This document shows positions 15,226 to 22,167 of a stretch of 64,000 nucleotides of DNA, in pieces; the first letter of the stretch is position 1, and each line of letters opens with the position of its first letter. The DNA is from Anaerocolumna sp. (GTDB lineage: Bacteria; Bacillota; Clostridia; Lachnospirales; Lachnospiraceae). Made by a program: the position numbers and the translations under genes. Below the pieces are notes generated by a model. That model was not told the origin of the DNA. It saw only the letters and a program-made list of their open reading frames with translations, and made no database searches. The stretch covers positions 1-64,000 of the forward strand of contig JAQSXJ010000009.1 in the NCBI GenBank assembly GCA_029256725.1, read 5' to 3'.

Positions 15226-15265
15226 GCAGAGTTTATATAAGCACTTAACCTTTAGCAATTGTCAG

Positions 15266-15471
15266 CTTATAGCAACTTCTTTACTAATTGAAATTACTTT
15301 GTTTATGGCAACTACTTTGCTTATAGAAACTACTTTGCTTATAGCAACTTCTTTACTAATAGCAACTACTTTGTTTATAGCAACTTCTTTGCTAATGGCA
15401 ACTTCTTTACTAATGGCAACTTCTTCACTAATGGCAACTACTTTGCTAGGCAACTACCTTGCTAATAGCTT
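15266..15471. repeat. 18-bp minisatellite, 11 units, between mccB and mccA
   Basis: Units of the form GCAACTTCTTTACTAATA (variants GAAATT or GAAACT at the start) begin at 15272, 15290, 15308, 15326, 15344, 15362, 15380, 15398, 15416, 15434 and 15450. The period is exactly 18 except the last step (16). Being divisible by three, the array is open in several frames on both strands, giving LLIATS-like or KEVAIS-like hexapeptides. Neither reading has a ribosome site, so it is treated as non-coding DNA. It fills most of the 15226-15597 gap. Confidence 0.95.
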
Positions 15472-15597: not shown

Positions 15598-16509
15598 ATG
15601 AAATATTATAATGACATTCGTCAACTGATTGGCAACACACCTCTTTTTCTATTAAATAACATGAATTTTCCAAACAATCTCCGTGTCTTTGCCAAGCTGG
15701 AGTTATTAAATCCCGGCGGAAGTGTAAAAGACCGGATGGGCATGGCTCTTATTAAGGACGCGGAACTGCGTGGCATCCTAAAACCCGGTTCTGTTATTAT
15801 AGAAGCCACGGCAGGAAATGCCGGAATAGGTCTGGCACTTGCTGCCCTTAATAAAGGTTACCGGGTAATCTTTGCCGTCCCTGAGAAATTCTCTTTGGAA
15901 AAACAGGCCATTATGCGGGCTTACGGTGCAGAGATAATTCATACCCCTCTGGAAAAGGGAATGCAGGGTGCTTTTGAGAAGGTAGAGGAATTAAAAAGAG
16001 AAATAGAAAATCCAGTACTTTTGAATCAGTTTGCTAATCCTGAGAATCCCAAAGCTCACTATAATACAACCGGCCCTGAAATTTATAAGGATCTGGATGG
16101 CAATATCGATTATCTTATAGGTGGTGCCGGAAGCGGTGGAACTTTAAGTGGGGTAGCCAAATATCTGAAAGAACAGCTCCCCTCTCTTAAATGTATTCTG
16201 GCAGATCCTTTGGGTTCAACCATGGGAGGAGGCGAAGCAGGCTGCTATTCTATTGAAGGTATTGGAAATACTTTTATGCCGGAAACCATGGATATGACCT
16301 TAATTGATGAAGTAATTAAGGTAAGAGATGAAGAAGCTGTTCAAGAAGTACGTCTTTTGGCGGCACATGAAGGTATATTAGCTGGTTTCTCCTCCGGTGC
16401 TGCATTAACAGCCGTTAGAAGGGCTGCGGATCATTTGCGGGCGGGAAGTAACGTGGTGGTTATTCTACCCGACAGAGGTGACCGGTACTTTAGTAAAGAT
16501 ATATATTAA
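15598..16509 (+). CDS. mccA: O-acetylserine-dependent cystathionine beta-synthase-like (MccA)
   Basis: 303 aa. It is a fold-type II PLP enzyme of the cysteine synthase family: IGNTPL at the N-terminus, PLP lysine K44 in NPGGSVKDRMG, the substrate loop EATAGNAGIGLA, the phosphate loop GGAGSGGTL and a C-terminal FSSGAAL. The TAGN loop (rather than TSGN of CysK) points to MccA, which condenses O-acetylserine with homocysteine to cystathionine. The Ala after TAGN replaces a usual Thr. No ribosome site precedes the ATG, which is unusual; the start is set by alignment of the N-terminal DIRQLIGNTPL. Confidence 0.82.
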   Translation: MKYYNDIRQLIGNTPLFLLNNMNFPNNLRVFAKLELLNPGGSVKDRMGMALIKDAELRGILKPGSVIIEATAGNAGIGLALAALNKGYRVIFAVPEKFSLEKQAIMRAYGAEIIHTPLEKGMQGAFEKVEELKREIENPVLLNQFANPENPKAHYNTTGPEIYKDLDGNIDYLIGGAGSGGTLSGVAKYLKEQLPSLKCILADPLGSTMGGGEAGCYSIEGIGNTFMPETMDMTLIDEVIKVRDEEAVQEVRLLAAHEGILAGFSSGAALTAVRRAADHLRAGSNVVVILPDRGDRYFSKDIY

Positions 16510-16581
16510 TCCTTCTTAAATAAAGGCTAATTAAATTCAATAAATTCAATGATTAAAACTCCATTATAATAATCTCATAAT

Positions 16582-16626
16582 AAAAGAAGCGTAAATACCA
16601 GAAGTTCCGGTATTTACGCTTCTTTT
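16582..16626. terminator. Bidirectional terminator overlapping the ada stop codon
   Basis: AAAAGAAGCGTAAATACC (16582-16599) pairs perfectly with GGTATTTACGCTTCTTTT (16609-16626), an 18-bp stem with a 9-base loop. It serves mccA on the plus strand. It also covers the first bases of the stop codon of the convergent ada gene (stop at 16625-16627). Confidence 0.85.
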
Positions 16627-17677
16627 ATGAATTGTAATGCTGCTCATGATGTATCATCCACCTTTTTCGCTCCAGACCACCGCCATATCCGCCTAAGTCG
16701 CCACCTGTCTGTATGACTCTGTGACAGGGTATAATGATAGCCAACTGGTTAGCACCATTTGCATTACCTACAGCTCGTACTGCTTTGGGATTACCAAGAG
16801 CTTGTGCTATATCTTTATAAGAGATAACTTCTCCAATCTCTATTTTCCTAAGCATATCCCAGACCTTCTTTTGAAATTCTGAACCAAATACTATAACCGG
16901 GGTTTTAAACTCTTTTAGTTTCCCAGAAAAATAGAGACCTAATTCATCTTCTATCTGCTTCGATATTTCTGTCTTGCCCGGAATAATACGAGCATTTAAT
17001 TTAATTCTAAGTCTTTCTATCTCCCTCTCCAATCCCCTGCGGTCTACGAATTCCAATAAATACAGGTATTCATCATCTGCAATGCTAAGCATTGGTCCTA
17101 AGGGTGTATCTGTCCAGCAGGCATGAAGTACTTTGATTTCACCTGCTTTCTTTGGCGGTATCCCCATAATCTTTGAAAAGGCATCATGAAAACCGCTGGA
17201 AGAATCATACCCTGTGTCAAGCTGTGTATTAATGATCTTTTCCCCACTTCGTATGGATTTCATAGCCAGTCCCATTCTTCTGGCTCTTGCATACTGAACA
17301 AAGGTCATACCATAAATTTTCTTAAACTGTCTTCTGGCAGTAGCTCCATGGATACCCAGCTCAGCAAAATCGGAATCTTTCCAACGTTTTTCCGGATTCT
17401 CTTCTACCTGTTCTACCATATTTTGAATCAGGGGAGAAATTTCCTTGGGATAAGAAAGAGGATGACATTTCTTACAAGGGCGAAAACCTGCATGCAATGC
17501 TTCACTGGCGGATTCATAGAAAATACAATTTTCATATTTGGGTTTTCTTGCAGGGCAGGTGGCATGGCAGAATACGCCTGTCGTTTTAATTCCTGCAAAG
17601 AATATTCCGTCATACTCTGAATTTCTCTCTACCAGCGCTGTATAATATTTTCTTTTGACAGTCTCATCTATAACCAT
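16625..17677 (-). CDS. ada: Ada-type bifunctional DNA methylation-damage sensor and repair protein
   Basis: 350 aa. The N-terminal Ada zinc domain has its four ligands C37, C41, C68 and C71 (GVFCHATCPARKP; FRPCKKC); C37 would accept methyl groups from DNA phosphotriesters. An AraC-type helix-turn-helix follows (about 85-180; TARRQFKKIYGMTFVQYARA). The C-terminal O6-alkylguanine transferase domain carries IPCHRVIQ with C318 as the acceptor. The full set matches E. coli Ada, which removes methyl groups and turns into an activator of alkylation-repair genes. The AlkC-like gene at 20.1 kb is a plausible partner. Confidence 0.93.
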   Translation of the reverse strand: MVIDETVKRKYYTALVERNSEYDGIFFAGIKTTGVFCHATCPARKPKYENCIFYESASEALHAGFRPCKKCHPLSYPKEISPLIQNMVEQVEENPEKRWKDSDFAELGIHGATARRQFKKIYGMTFVQYARARRMGLAMKSIRSGEKIINTQLDTGYDSSSGFHDAFSKIMGIPPKKAGEIKVLHACWTDTPLGPMLSIADDEYLYLLEFVDRRGLEREIERLRIKLNARIIPGKTEISKQIEDELGLYFSGKLKEFKTPVIVFGSEFQKKVWDMLRKIEIGEVISYKDIAQALGNPKAVRAVGNANGANQLAIIIPCHRVIQTGGDLGGYGGGLERKRWMIHHEQHYNS

Positions 17678-17891
17678 AATAAAACCTCACTTTCTGGTTA
17701 ACTTAATACCTTTGAAGATTTAAAATGCAATTTCTGTTAAGGTATATTATAAAAACAAAGAGCATGTTCCTATAATTGGATGCTCGGCAGAAGAAATCGC
17801 TGCCTTTTATCAGAACAAAAGTACAATTTCTGATAAGCTTTATTATAATCATTTATGAGAAGTTGTCCTACGAAAAATGAACATGCATTTT
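17678..17891. other. Intergenic region with an imperfect direct repeat
   Basis: About 27 bases (CAATTTCTGTTAAGGTATATTATAA type) near 17729 recur near 17823 as CAATTTCTGATAAGCTTTATTATAA, 94 bp apart. Inverted copies of GAGCAT/ATGCTC (around 17760-17784) lie between. The gap probably holds the ada promoter and the end of the GIY-YIG gene transcript. No coding signal. Confidence 0.5.
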
Positions 17892-18224
17892 TTAAGCCTG
17901 CTGTTTCTCCATCCAAATCTTAAGTAATACTTCCATATCTTCTGCAAATTCCTTATCTGTCTGTGTCTCACCTTGTTTCAATTCTTCTAATATCTCGAAA
18001 GAAAATGTCTTAGCTCCATATTGATTCCATTCCGTAAGCATGGAAGGTTCCGGACAGGAATTTGTAGAGAAGAAGAATTCATATCTATTTTTCTGTCCTT
18101 CCATATCCCTTGTTGTTTTTATCCAGGTTCGATTATTTACGTTGCATTTGATACAATAGATACCTCCTACTGCTTTCTTACTCTTATATTGCTCTATTAA
18201 TTCTTTTCTTTTCGTCTTATCCAT
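17892..18224 (-). CDS. GIY-YIG-like small protein
   Basis: 110 aa from the ATG at 18224 (AAGGAAG 8 bases upstream). An upstream GTG at 18257 would overlap the XRE gene and is rejected. The segment VGGIYCIKCNVNNRTWIK resembles the GIY of a GIY-YIG fold, and LTEWNQYGAKTFSFEILEEL is typical of small GIY-YIG-related Firmicute proteins. The second motif and the catalytic Arg/Glu are not obvious, so nuclease activity is doubtful. It starts 20 bp after the stop of the XRE-superoxide-reductase fusion gene and is probably cotranscribed with it. Confidence 0.6.
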   Translation of the reverse strand: MDKTKRKELIEQYKSKKAVGGIYCIKCNVNNRTWIKTTRDMEGQKNRYEFFFSTNSCPEPSMLTEWNQYGAKTFSFEILEELKQGETQTDKEFAEDMEVLLKIWMEKQQA

Positions 18225-18244
18225 TGTTTTGCTTCCTTTCCGTT

Positions 18245-18847
18245 CTATATAAACCATAATCCGTGTCGGCTGCAGTAATAATACAGCCTTGCATTGTCCC
18301 TATGCTGTAACTTTCCGCCGCTTAATTTGGGCAGTCTTACGCTGGCTTGCTGCTCCGGATAAAGTTTGACCAACAGAATTCTGTCTGACATTACATATGC
18401 CACAAAGGAAAGATAATGGTCTTTCTTCATATCGTGGGAAAAGGTTATATAATACTCGTCTTCTGTTTCTTCTATCTCAGGTTGATGCCTTTCATCAGCC
18501 GGTTTTGCTATAAGCGCTGTCAGTCTTCTTCCACAGCAGGAAATACCGGCATCTCCGGTATTGCTGATAATATTGTTGCATACCGGACAAACATAGAAGC
18601 TGGAACGTTTAAAATTACCCGTATCAATGGCATTGGATGCCAAGTCACCTTCTAAAATTTTTTCAATATCTATCTGAAATAAATCTGATAGTTCTCCAAG
18701 TAGGGATATATCCGGGCATCCCAAGCCTCTCTCCCATTTAGATATTGTCTTGTCACTGAGATTTAACCTGTCTGCAATCTGCTTTTGGGTCATACCTTTT
18801 TCTTTACGAAGACGGAGTAAGAGACCTCCCACTTTCTGACTGTCCAA
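18245..18847 (-). CDS. XRE-family regulator fused to a complete desulfoferrodoxin (2Fe superoxide reductase) module
   Basis: 200 aa. Residues 5-66 are a Cro/C1 helix-turn-helix (MTQKQIADRLNLSDKTISKWE). From residue 84 the sequence follows desulfoferrodoxin. The desulforedoxin-type Fe(Cys)4 site is C87, C90, C104 and C105 (YVCPVC; ISCCG). The neelaredoxin-type Fe(His)4Cys site is H121 in RHQPEIE, H138 and H144 in SHDMKKDHY, and C192/H195 in YYCSRHGLW. All nine iron ligands of the two-iron enzyme are present with normal spacing. The catalytic Lys before the first His is Arg (R120). This suggests an iron-based sensor of superoxide, peroxide, NO or O2 (inference) that may retain some reductase activity. 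Confidence 0.85.
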   Translation of the reverse strand: MDSQKVGGLLLRLRKEKGMTQKQIADRLNLSDKTISKWERGLGCPDISLLGELSDLFQIDIEKILEGDLASNAIDTGNFKRSSFYVCPVCNNIISNTGDAGISCCGRRLTALIAKPADERHQPEIEETEDEYYITFSHDMKKDHYLSFVAYVMSDRILLVKLYPEQQASVRLPKLSGGKLQHRDNARLYYYCSRHGLWFI

Positions 18848-18913
18848 TTACCTTACCTCCAATTTACTATTATAAATAACTTTGAATGAAGCCACAATAA
18901 ACGCTCCGTAGAG

Positions 18914-19849
18914 TTACAGCTTTAACTCATAGTTCTGTTCAATTAAGGTTTTCCCCCAGAAGTTATTTTCAAATTCTTTCACTAGTTGAAAACCTGCTTT
19001 TTTATACATACTAACTGCCGTCTTTTGTTCTCTGGTAGTATCAAGAAATACCCTCTTGTAGTTTTTATCCCTACAGAACTGTAAGGCCTGTGTCAACAAC
19101 CGCCTGCCTAATCCAATACTTCTGTAAGAGGGATGTATGATAAACCATCTAAGCTGTGCTAATTCTTCTGAATGTCCAACAATCGCAATAGCACCTACAA
19201 TTTTCCCCTGTGCTTCTGCCAGCCAGATTCTGTCTTTCTCTGGATTATAGCTTAGGAGAAAATCATAAAAAGTCTTACAGACATACCCTTCAAATATATG
19301 ATTGTACCCGCATTCCTTTTCATATAACCACCCATGCAGTTCAATGAGCCTCCCGACATCTCCCGGCCTTAACTCACAACGCAGGTTAATGTCTTCTTCT
19401 ACTATGGCATTTTGGTCGCCGGATAGAATTTCTTGTATGTTCTCCATGCTCTTAACTAATCTTTCCTGTTCCGCTTCCTGCAATTCAGAAACCATGCTGG
19501 TAATATGCTTATCTGATAATCCATTCAGCTTGTCCAGAGTTTCTTTCCCAAGTTCCGTCAGATACAGATAGAACAGTCTCCCATCTTCTTTTGACTGTAC
19601 CCTGTAAGTAAGACCTTGCTTTTCAAATCGCTTTATAATTCGGCTGAGATATCCGGAATCAATACTAAGTTCCTGAATTAATTGTTTAGCTGTACAATCC
19701 TTGTTATGGGCTATGTCATACAGAACACGGGCTTCGGACAGTGAAAAGTCACTGTTTAGCATATGCTGATCCAGCAGCCCCAGAATATTGGTGTAGAAAC
19801 GGTTGAATTTTCGTATGGTATGGATAAATGGAGTATGAACTGATTCCAT
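18914..19849 (-). CDS. MarR-GNAT fusion regulator/acetyltransferase
   Basis: 311 aa. Residues about 10-145 are a MarR winged helix (LSEARVLYDIAHNKDCTAKQL; LSRIIKRFEKQGLTYR; DGRLFYLYLTELGKE). Residues about 155-311 are a GNAT domain with LRWFIIHPSYRSIGLGRRLL as acetyl-CoA site and TAVSMYKKAGFQLV. Such fusions are common in Firmicutes and Actinobacteria; targets are mostly unknown. A consensus promoter overlapped by a TGACT-A-AGTCA dyad lies upstream, so it likely represses itself. AGGAGGT precedes the start. Confidence 0.9.
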   Translation of the reverse strand: MESVHTPFIHTIRKFNRFYTNILGLLDQHMLNSDFSLSEARVLYDIAHNKDCTAKQLIQELSIDSGYLSRIIKRFEKQGLTYRVQSKEDGRLFYLYLTELGKETLDKLNGLSDKHITSMVSELQEAEQERLVKSMENIQEILSGDQNAIVEEDINLRCELRPGDVGRLIELHGWLYEKECGYNHIFEGYVCKTFYDFLLSYNPEKDRIWLAEAQGKIVGAIAIVGHSEELAQLRWFIIHPSYRSIGLGRRLLTQALQFCRDKNYKRVFLDTTREQKTAVSMYKKAGFQLVKEFENNFWGKTLIEQNYELKL

Positions 19850-19881
19850 GGAATACCTCCTGTATTTTTAATTTTATGCTT

Positions 19882-19910
19882 ATTATAAATATATTATCTG
19901 ACTAAGTCAA
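19882..19910 (-). promoter_or_regulatory. Promoter and candidate MarR operator of the MarR-GNAT gene
   Basis: On the minus strand TTGACT (19905-19910), a 17-bp spacer and TATAAT (19882-19887). The dyad TGACT-A-AGTCA (19899-19909) covers the -35 box, a standard position for MarR autorepression. Confidence 0.65.
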
Positions 19911-20146
19911 CTATTTATTATTTTTAAGTATTTATCTTATCAGAGTTTTCATACACCTCCTAAGTGCGGCATGACCTGAACTTACTGCAAACACCATTTT
20001 CTATGACATAACGTGATCGAATGAAAAAATGTATACATGCAATAAAGTTTTAAACCTGACTTACTGTTGTCATATTTGAATGGTTATACTATAGTAAAAT
20101 GTATGAATAAATTCATTAATATATTGTGTTTTATCGGAGGTACATT

Positions 20147-21247
20147 ATGGCTGAGGCTTTTAAGGATATTTATACGGAACAGTTTCTGAGGGATTTTAGT
20201 GATAAAATAAATTCCGTGTATGAGAATTTTCAAGGAGAAGAGTTTGTAGCCGCTGTACTTGCTGATTCCTGGGAAGATTTGGCCCTGCGAGGCAGGATGT
20301 TGCGGATTGTTGATATACTTGGCAGATTATTACCACCTGATTATGAAGATGCACTAGGGATTTTATACAAACTTGTCAATCACTGCGAAGGTTTTCCTTA
20401 TCTGTTCTTTCCGGACTTTGTAGCGGCTTTCGGATTAAAAGAGGAATATTGGGATATATCCATGAGTGCTTTAGAGTGCTTTACAAAGCATTCCTCCTCG
20501 GAATTCGCTATCAGGCCTTTTATCCTTAAAGATGCAGAACGGACCATGGGGTATATGCTTAAATGGTCAACAAGTTCCAATGAACATGTCAGACGTCTAT
20601 CCAGTGAAGGCTGCAGGCCTCGTCTTCCCTGGAGTATGGATCTCCCAGTATTTAAGAAAGATCCAACTATGGTGCTTAATGTACTAGAGAATCTGAAAGC
20701 AGATTCTTCCCTCTATGTTCGCAAAAGTGTTGCCAACAATCTTAATGATATTGCTAAGGATCATCCGGACGTAGTGTTAGCGGTTGCAAGGAAATGGATT
20801 GGCAAGAATCCAGAAACCGATTGGATTCTTAGGCATGGCTGCCGTACCCTTATACGAAAAGCCGTACCGGAAGTACTGGCTTTATTCGGTTATGCAGACA
20901 CCTCTGAATCTGAACCCCTGATTTTAAATGCTACGTTGAATGTAACCCCGGATCAGCTCTCTATCGGTGATACCTGCCAGTTTAATTATTCCCTAGATAT
21001 GAACAGAGATAGCCCTGCTCACATCCGTTTGGAGTATGGAATAGACTTTGTAAAATCCAAAGGTAAAACCTCAAGAAAAATCTTTCTATTGTCTGATAAA
21101 ACGGTACCCGGCAATTCCCATCTATCAGGCTCACATAACCACAGCTTTGCCAACCTTACCACCAGAAAGCATTATTCTGGATTACACAATATTGCCCTGT
21201 TAATTAACGGCATGGAAGTTGCTGCAACTACATTATTGCTGCAATAA
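20147..21247 (+). CDS. AlkC-like HEAT-repeat DNA glycosylase with C-terminal Ig-like domain
   Basis: 366 aa from the ATG at 20147 (CGGAGG 7 bases upstream); the open frame starts 7 codons earlier. The N-terminal two-thirds is helical with HEAT-like repeats, including SNEHVRRLSSEGCRPRLPW and SLYVRKSVANNLNDIAKDHP, characteristic of the AlkC/AlkD group of alkylpurine glycosylases. Residues about 270-366 are beta-rich and match the Ig-like domain found on some AlkC proteins. These enzymes excise methylated purines such as 3-methyladenine. With ada 2.5 kb away it suggests an alkylation-repair neighbourhood, though the genes are in separate units. Confidence 0.82.
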   Translation: MAEAFKDIYTEQFLRDFSDKINSVYENFQGEEFVAAVLADSWEDLALRGRMLRIVDILGRLLPPDYEDALGILYKLVNHCEGFPYLFFPDFVAAFGLKEEYWDISMSALECFTKHSSSEFAIRPFILKDAERTMGYMLKWSTSSNEHVRRLSSEGCRPRLPWSMDLPVFKKDPTMVLNVLENLKADSSLYVRKSVANNLNDIAKDHPDVVLAVARKWIGKNPETDWILRHGCRTLIRKAVPEVLALFGYADTSESEPLILNATLNVTPDQLSIGDTCQFNYSLDMNRDSPAHIRLEYGIDFVKSKGKTSRKIFLLSDKTVPGNSHLSGSHNHSFANLTTRKHYSGLHNIALLINGMEVAATTLLLQ

Positions 21248-21753: not shown

Positions 21754-22167
21754 TTAGACCCCCTTTTCTAATGCATATGTAGCGATTCGCTGATCTTCAG
21801 CGGCAACATGATTAATCAGCCAGGCTAAGAGTTTTCCGGCAAATTGCTGCATCAGTTGCTCATTATATCCGCTCTCTTCGTAGTCCTTTGTAAACTTCAC
21901 TACATAATTCACCATATCTGCATGTATCTGCTTATGAGCTTCATAACCCGGATATCCGATTCTTAACTGATATTCTTCCTCATCTCTGAAGTGTTCTACT
22001 ACATAACCATTCATAAACGCAAGAGTTTCATTGACCTGCTGTACTTTCTCTTCCCAGGAAGCGGCAGATCGCAATGTCTGCATAAATACCTGTACACGAC
22101 GGAATAATTCTATGTGTTGTGCATCTACCACATCCACTCCCAGCTCGTACTTATCTTTCCAAAGCAT
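21754..22167 (-). CDS. Bacteriohemerythrin
   Basis: 137 aa single-domain hemerythrin. All seven expected di-iron ligands are visible: H18 (DAQH), H59 and E63 (EHFRDEE), H78 and H82 (AHKQIH), H120 and D125 (INHVAAED). Such proteins bind O2 reversibly and act in oxygen storage, delivery or sensing. The start ATG has AAAGGA upstream on the minus strand. It is the first gene of a unit with the CheX-like gene. Confidence 0.93.
   Translation of the reverse strand: MLWKDKYELGVDVVDAQHIELFRRVQVFMQTLRSAASWEEKVQQVNETLAFMNGYVVEHFRDEEEYQLRIGYPGYEAHKQIHADMVNYVVKFTKDYEESGYNEQLMQQFAGKLLAWLINHVAAEDQRIATYALEKGV

Follow-up and report, generated by a model that had tools for sequence, protein, structure and literature searches.

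Gene and Domain Organization of the HTH-Dfx Locus

The window, by which we mean the whole stretch of 64,000 nucleotides that was analysed, encodes on its minus strand a protein whose N-terminal helix-turn-helix (HTH) domain precedes a desulfoferrodoxin-like (Dfx) module (Table 1). The TTG start codon of this gene has a GGAGG sequence upstream, and its assignment is supported by more distant relatives, which have an ATG at the same position. The initial annotation had described an XRE helix-turn-helix joined to a Dfx module with nine iron ligands, and this was borne out by the HTH_3 match, by phmmer alignment to PDB entry 2ji1 (8.1e-7) and by an AlphaFold model. In the 2ji1 alignment each of C87, C90, C104, C105, H121, H138, H144, C192 and H195 was aligned with one of the Dfx residues that we take, as established knowledge, to act as metal ligands. 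The neighboring Glu of centre II is also kept (E119).

Table 1. Positions of the features of the HTH-Dfx locus in the window.
Feature	Position	Strand	Details and evidence
GIY-YIG-like small protein (110 aa)	17892..18224	minus	NCBIfam grpIintron_endo 2.4e-6, below cut-off
HTH-Dfx protein gene	18245..18847	minus	200 aa, TTG start
Centre II (superoxide-reductase site): H121, H138, H144, C192, H195	18263..18487	minus	alignment to 2ji1
Centre I (desulforedoxin-type site): C87, C90, C104, C105	18533..18589	minus	alignment to 2ji1 and relatives
XRE/HTH_3 DNA-binding domain, residues 12-63	18659..18814	minus	Pfam HTH_3, E 1.3e-14
Ribosome-binding site GGAGG	18856..18860	minus	sequence
Predicted promoter: -35 TTGTGG, 17-nt spacer, -10 TATAAT	18869..18897	minus	sequence and aligned sites
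Predicted operator ACTCTACGGAGCGTTTATTG, imperfect inverted repeat CTACG-N3-CGT(AG)	18895..18914	minus	centre 18905; footprint and matrix scan

Profile searches and structure prediction had been suggested as checks on the domain assignment. The profiles found HTH_3, but the matches to the Dfx profiles did not reach their curated cut-offs (Pfam Desulfoferrodox, PF01880, 19.1 bits against 22.2; NCBIfam dfx_rbo, TIGR00320, 4.1e-10 and 39.9 bits against 146.9). The AlphaFold model, made with 58 sequences, had a pLDDT of 90.5 and a pTM of 0.72, and its overall fold was closest to superoxide reductases (2ji2, E 2.6e-9; 1y07_C, TM by target 0.78), the next PDB matches, such as HppE, appearing only from 7e-6. 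Because the 2ji1 match includes all nine ligands and the model matches superoxide reductases, the Dfx homology of the protein is clear despite the sub-cut-off profile scores. A chance assembly of the nine ligands was ruled out by the 2ji1 alignment, the conservation of the ligands in the family and the fold match.

The ligands had also been described as standing at normal spacing. All of them are present, but their spacing departs from the classical form. Between C90 and C104 lie 13 residues, as in 159 of 160 relatives, versus 15 in classical proteins. The loops before H121 and H138 are shorter than in the classical form, with 16 residues between these two ligands versus 19 in the separate classical Dfx of the same genome (L001, in which the catalytic Lys and all nine ligands are present). 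The loop between residues 144 and 192 has 47 residues in the window protein and 39 in 136 of 160 relatives. Similarly, the catalytic Lys is indeed Arg in the window protein (R120), but a special replacement it is not: 17 different residues occur at this position across the family. R120 as a meaningful Lys substitute was thus ruled out, position 120 being free.

Distribution of the Architecture

Of the 391 genomes of the class that were sampled, 74 (the window's own included) carry a full-length HTH-Dfx protein, and 83 have any match at the chosen E-value. In a genome-contig collection at least 580 stretches were confirmed, and the best 80 of 580 matches include Bacillaceae, Paenibacillaceae, Treponemataceae, Coriobacteriaceae and Eggerthellaceae. 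A plasmid collection yielded 18 records, two of which cover at least 80% of the query; the record of a Monoglobus pectinilyticus plasmid annotates its copy merely as a helix-turn-helix domain-containing protein.

Conservation of the Two Metal Sites

To compare the metal sites we used 160 distinct cores, the window's own included, from 165 full-length loci. These loci comprised close relatives, the best 80 of the 580 genome-contig matches (a few of them incomplete), the best of the class search and 32 additional full-length rows of that search chosen for breadth (8 partial rows were retrieved alongside them); 12 full-length rows of the class search were left out. The collections overlap, so that the same place or near-identical copies may count twice among the 165 loci. 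A match to the Dfx part was required for membership, making a complete loss of the Dfx part invisible in the 160 rows.

Three of the centre I ligands, C87, C90 and C104, were present in 160 of 160 relatives, as was H138 of centre II. The fourth centre I ligand, C105, was Cys in 139 relatives and His in 21; accepting His in this role, all 160 retain centre I. The remaining centre II ligands were less constant: H121 was kept in 116, H144 in 150, C192 in 150 and H195 in 115, and all five centre II ligands, like all nine ligands, in 86 of 160. At H195 the replacement was mostly Asp (27 of 160), which could still bind metal. The ten rows that had lost C192 all lacked H121 and H195 too, and nine of them lacked H144, which was lost in only one of the 150 rows keeping C192. 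Lys was found at position 120 in eight of 160 relatives and the EKH triad in six. Three residues outside the ligand set were nearly invariant in alignments that included relatives down to 42% identity (Y163 in 158, P164 in 159 and E165 in 155 of 160).

The Cys3His form of centre I is found in one main clade (L022-L026 and relatives; 21 of 160 rows in all). Of these 21 rows, 18 have Asp for H195, and the two replacements thus largely co-occur. Rows without C192 were scattered over several places on the tree, a quick LG+G4 tree calculated with no mixture model. The best tree placed nine changes for the loss of centre II, with four independent pairs on supported branches and a sign test that was not significant; tree support for separate losses is modest.

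As a control we compiled 76 classical superoxide reductases (SORs): the window genome's own, the 30 best and 40 hand-picked among the matches listed, and five from another search. Glu, Lys and the five centre II ligands were kept in 76 of 76, whereas 41 have a complete centre I, 34 lack it and one has a broken site. The classical SORs were mostly found with a centre II profile, which favours an intact centre II, so the size of the contrast is biased while its direction is clear. On this sequence comparison the constraint is inverted: the regulators always retain the site that the enzymes can lack, and they can lack parts of the site that the enzymes always retain. With C192 lost in ten relatives and centre II complete in 86, against a centre I retained by all 160, it is centre I, rather than the catalytic iron, that the comparison marks as indispensable to the HTH-Dfx family. 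The persistence of the five ligands in 86 of 160 relatives indicates that centre II is nevertheless under some constraint. The suggestion that the protein retains residual reductase activity is not supported as a family trait, given the frequencies of Lys, the EKH triad and a complete centre II.

A Predicted Operator Overlapping the Promoter

The upstream region of the gene contains a predicted promoter, the -35 box of which is overlapped by a predicted operator whose right end is the TTG of that box. Numbering the final base of the -10 box -7 puts the centre of the operator, by arithmetic, at -43. The block ACTCTACGGAGCGTTkATTG was invariant across six aligned sequences (the window and five relatives), including the three more distant of the six, which no longer aligned around it. 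No Rfam family reached the gathering score in positions 16500-20200, ruling out a known structured RNA behind the block.

Allowing up to two mismatches, the 14-mer core of this block occurs in 57 of the 160 upstream regions (as an exact copy in 28), versus 0.1 expected from mononucleotide shuffles. A matrix trained on these matches was then run over regions of up to 300 nt. At a cut-off reached by 1% of 1590 dinucleotide shuffles it recovered a site in 133 of the 159 upstream regions, and 125 beat every shuffle. A better palindrome, CTACG-N3-CGTAG, was seen in other clades. The -35/-10 spacing was constant over 55 aligned sites, in which TAnnnT followed 20 nt after the TTG (T in 46, A in 47 and T in 48 of the 55). 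The proposed promoter was missed by a generic scan, which needs four of six matching positions in the -35 box where this one has three; the same scan listed no minus-strand terminator.

For 23 of the 26 regulators without a directly upstream site, a same-strand site with a score above 12 was found further up, at distances of up to 6.7 kb from the regulator. Two of the 23 (L057, 12.8; L127, 13.7) scored below the best shuffle (15.7). These sites precede GIY-YIG-like genes in 19 cases, flavodoxin-like genes in two, a CAT-like gene in one and a regulator with a long leader in one, the families being assigned partly by eye. Given these distances, cotranscription with the regulator may not apply at every locus. 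For three of 159 regulators (L070, L136 and L171) no operator site was found, and a GIY-YIG-like neighbor is present at L171. In locus L197 (G011) the gene order is GIY-YIG-like, DUF6530, AAA/VWA and HTH-Dfx, and the sole pattern match lies before the GIY-YIG-like gene. This match is not significant alone (one versus 1.64 expected), and the matrix gave a second, weaker hit inside an upstream gene (17.1 versus 19.9). The arrangement recurs, and the sequences suggest that the predicted operator goes with the operon rather than with the regulator gene.

The GIY-YIG-like Partner Gene

The GIY-YIG-like gene begins 20 nt past the stop codon of the regulator and is probably cotranscribed with it, as the initial annotation had proposed. 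Its product is also the commonest recurring neighbor of the regulator, found at 22 of 165 loci by clustering and at 26 loci with a phmmer match, counts in which a few places occur twice. Each of the 22 clustered copies shares the strand of the regulator. Among 98 genomes (the window's own and relatives) a GIY-YIG-like gene occurs in 16, nine of which have it no more than 7 kb away from the regulator. Its position downstream, its frequency as a neighbor and the presence of the same operator before it elsewhere all support its belonging with the regulator. The Pfam scan of the window gave no match for the GIY-YIG-like protein, and a single-sequence AlphaFold model was uninformative (pLDDT 49.5). 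The catalytic residues of GIY-YIG nucleases, in the GIY and YIG motifs and at the Arg, were not kept in all of the 11 members aligned.

Operator Sites Elsewhere and Candidate Targets

The single exact operator copy in the window's genome is the regulator's own site. Two operator searches of this genome gave three weaker hits each, which did not exceed the reversed-pattern control (8 and 12 hits). Since a single site was found, the regulon of the window copy may comprise its own operon only.

The exact-pattern scan of the 391 genomes gave 20 hits in 19 genomes, while the reversed pattern gave none. A full-length regulator is carried by 18 of these 19 genomes versus 74 of 391 overall (Fisher 2.5e-13, a value partly built in, since the regulators' own promoters count). 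Thirteen of the sites are the regulator's own promoter, one lies before a GIY-YIG-like gene upstream of the regulator (G320) and six are elsewhere. Three of those six precede CAT-like genes (G436, G075 and G320). The others precede a DUF2087 gene in G267, with 233 nt between the site and the start of the frame; a Dabb gene in G421, which begins 196 nt past the site and whose promoter is less typical; and, in G311, an XRE-GNAT gene. Five of the six are in genomes with the regulator (binomial 0.0012), the exception being G311, which has no full-length regulator.

Allowing up to one mismatch, the 98 genomes gave 25 hits versus eight for the reversed-pattern control. Eleven are own promoters, including that of a truncated regulator copy in G022; four precede GIY-YIG-like genes (two of them on contigs other than that of the regulator), three CAT-like genes and two other XRE genes; one is near a DUF2087-like gene, so named by likeness to L271. 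The remaining four (L251, L254, L259 and L263) are unclear and look like chance, the control having had eight hits. Away from the regulator's locus, or on a different contig, such sites precede CAT-like genes in G436, G075, G320 and G059 and GIY-YIG-like genes in G083 and G051. Three of the CAT-like proteins were scanned; they gave a strong match to Pfam CAT and scored below the cut-off of the curated CatA model. The others were named by likeness.

XRE regulators without a Dfx part (L030, L249, L256 and L267) carry the same class of site. Among four HTH-only relatives (L028-L031), the site of L030 scored above every shuffle, that of L029 was weak, and L028 and L031 had none. Because Dfx-less regulators have this site class, some of the trans sites may be read by such siblings, and the operator class marks an XRE subfamily whose members differ in sensor. 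The XRE-GNAT protein L267 and the XRE-methyltransferase-like protein L256 resemble the window protein in HTH type and in having the operator class CTAC-N5-GTAG before their own gene; unlike it, they have other C-terminal domains. Possibly, such proteins form one XRE family that shares an operator type and swaps its sensors. The C-terminal domains of L249, L256, L267 and L030 also differ from Dfx, being membrane or methyltransferase domains by eye and, for L267, GNAT by Pfam.

Relation to Known Systems

In fold and in its nine ligands the window protein is like classical two-iron SORs, or desulfoferrodoxins (TIGR00320; PDB 1dfx, 2ji1). Unlike these, it lies far below the TIGR00320 cut-off, has no Lys, has a spacing of 13 rather than 15 and carries an added HTH domain, and the constraint pattern of its family is inverted (Lys in 8/160 versus 76/76).

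The HTH-Dx-SOR architecture is already in print. The available text of the SORGOdb paper (Lucchetti-Miganeh et al. 2011, PMC3116461) describes a class HTH-Dx-SOR with 19 of 325 proteins, states that centre II was required in every entry and names a CXXCX15CC spacing for the Dx site. As in that class, the window protein has an N-terminal HTH before a desulforedoxin and SOR module, with a four-Cys Dx site and centre II present. Its Dx spacing is X13, as in 159 of 160 relatives; the X15 of that text (PMC3116461) is given for the Dx site, and the HTH class may differ from it. Relatives without centre II fall outside the definition in that text (PMC3116461), and no operator or regulon for HTH-Dx-SOR is reported in it.

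The literature searched, in which subscription journals were thinly covered, yielded no functional study of HTH-Dx-SOR proteins, SORGOdb being the only recognition of them, and no binding, metal or redox experiment on HTH-Dfx proteins. The operator strings were not found in it either, and the relevant passages of PMC12724145 and PMC11980386 contain no protein of this kind. What appears to be new, as judged from sequence comparison, is a ligand constraint opposite to that of the enzymes and a predicted operator that overlaps the -35 box. The sole printed name found is that of an enzyme class, yet conservation makes the enzyme site optional. For a regulator that is common in anaerobes (74 of 391 genomes) and also occurs in some Bacilli, no function or target was found in the same literature. 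The predicted 20-bp operator makes what a desulfoferrodoxin senses on DNA directly testable.

Proposed Function and Alternatives

The initial annotation had read the protein as a regulator. Given a DNA-binding domain, a complete Dfx two-metal module and a predicted operator, it is very probably that. The combination that characterizes a one-component regulator, a DNA-binding domain and an own predicted operator, was found by comparison, directly upstream in 133 of 159 regions and further upstream for 23 of 26 others. With moderate confidence we favour the reading that the gene encodes an autoregulatory one-component metal/redox regulator of the HTH-Dx-SOR architecture that is not primarily a superoxide reductase.

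The proposal builds on the domains, ligands, constraint pattern, operator, promoter geometry and candidate targets that emerged from comparison. We infer that the protein binds DNA, probably as a dimer, at the inverted repeat overlapping the -35 box of its own promoter, and would thereby control its own expression together with that of the GIY-YIG-like gene cotranscribed with it; relatives have this site before GIY-YIG-like, CAT-like and flavodoxin-like genes as well. An operator centred at -43, with TTG alone conserved in the -35 box, fits a class II activator and a blocking repressor equally. The Dfx module would be the sensory and probably also the dimerizing part. Its four-ligand metal site, centre I, whatever the metal, would be the likeliest switch, through metal occupancy or oxidation; redox or metal sensing here would best fit a site that is never lost and is Cys3His in one main clade. 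Centre II, the former catalytic iron, is dispensable in the family and complete in the window copy, where it would tune or add sensing. Sensing by centre II is possible in this protein, as both sites are kept, and it may include oxygen or nitrogen species, with superoxide, peroxide, NO and O2 as the candidate signals.

The intact centre II of the window copy, with its five ligands and E119, also suits a bifunctional protein, a working superoxide reductase that regulates its own operon and in which centre II senses superoxide by turnover. More than half of the relatives (86/160) keep these ligands as well. We think this improbable, as the catalytic Lys is Arg here and rare in the family, as is the EKH triad, C192 is lost in ten relatives, and the genome has a separate classical Dfx with Lys and nine ligands. 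A different view of centre I is that it is structural. Cys3His, the form of centre I in 21 of 160 relatives, is a common zinc ligand set, and centre I might hold a zinc that maintains the dimer, while the beta-sandwich senses a small molecule or drug and the regulon forms a xenobiotic response. CAT-family genes with the operator in several genomes would suit such a regulon, and the XRE siblings with the same operator class do have other C-terminal domains; but the CAT-like proteins fall below the curated CatA cut-off, and a centre II complete in 86 of 160 would need another reason, leaving this reading doubtful in our judgment. That the Dfx part is a decaying passenger, the relic of an old fusion in which the helix-turn-helix alone matters, is highly improbable: centre II is degenerate in many lineages, but C87, C90, C104 and H138 are invariant and Y163, P164 and E165 nearly so in relatives down to 42% identity.

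If the one-component metal/redox regulator is the right reading, it would be like SoxR, PerR and FNR in coupling a metal centre to DNA binding. Their sensor folds (2Fe-2S MerR type, Fur fold and 4Fe-4S Crp type, respectively) are unrelated to the Dfx module. We know of no other regulator that senses via a desulforedoxin-type metal site, and none was found in the literature searched. Tentatively, we speculate that a DNA-bound switch has evolved from a superoxide reductase: the rubredoxin-type centre, auxiliary and optional in the enzymes, would have become the indispensable sensor, and the catalytic iron optional. One operator, kept from Clostridia to Bacilli, Spirochaetes and Actinomycetota, might then connect the regulator with its own gene and with a few others (GIY-YIG-like, CAT-like, flavodoxin-like and AAA/VWA genes) as a small regulon.

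Other Features of the Surrounding Region

Directly upstream of the regulator lies a MarR winged-helix fused to a GNAT acetyltransferase (18914-19849), and the predicted operator abuts the stop codon of this gene. Two DNA-alkylation genes flank the regulator (16625-17677 and 20126-21247), encoding an Ada-type O6-methylguanine methyltransferase and a HEAT/DNA_alkylation protein; Ada is also found at +2 in L003, L004 and, on the opposite strand, L021. These neighbors make a nitrosative or alkylation link of the regulator possible. At L197 (5373-8835, G011) the GIY-YIG-like, DUF6530, AAA+VWA (677 aa, weakly CobT_C-like) and HTH-Dfx genes form a compact row, and an AAA/VWA gene of this cluster occurs near the regulator in 11 of 165 loci. 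A tandem array at 15265-15469, with an 18-bp unit, 11.2 copies and 79% matches, sits between a cystathionine gamma-synthase-like gene (named by likeness) and the next gene and can be read as an open frame for a repetitive peptide on either strand. The window also encodes a hemerythrin-like protein (21754-22167), a possible O2 or NO binder, at some 3 kb from the regulator.
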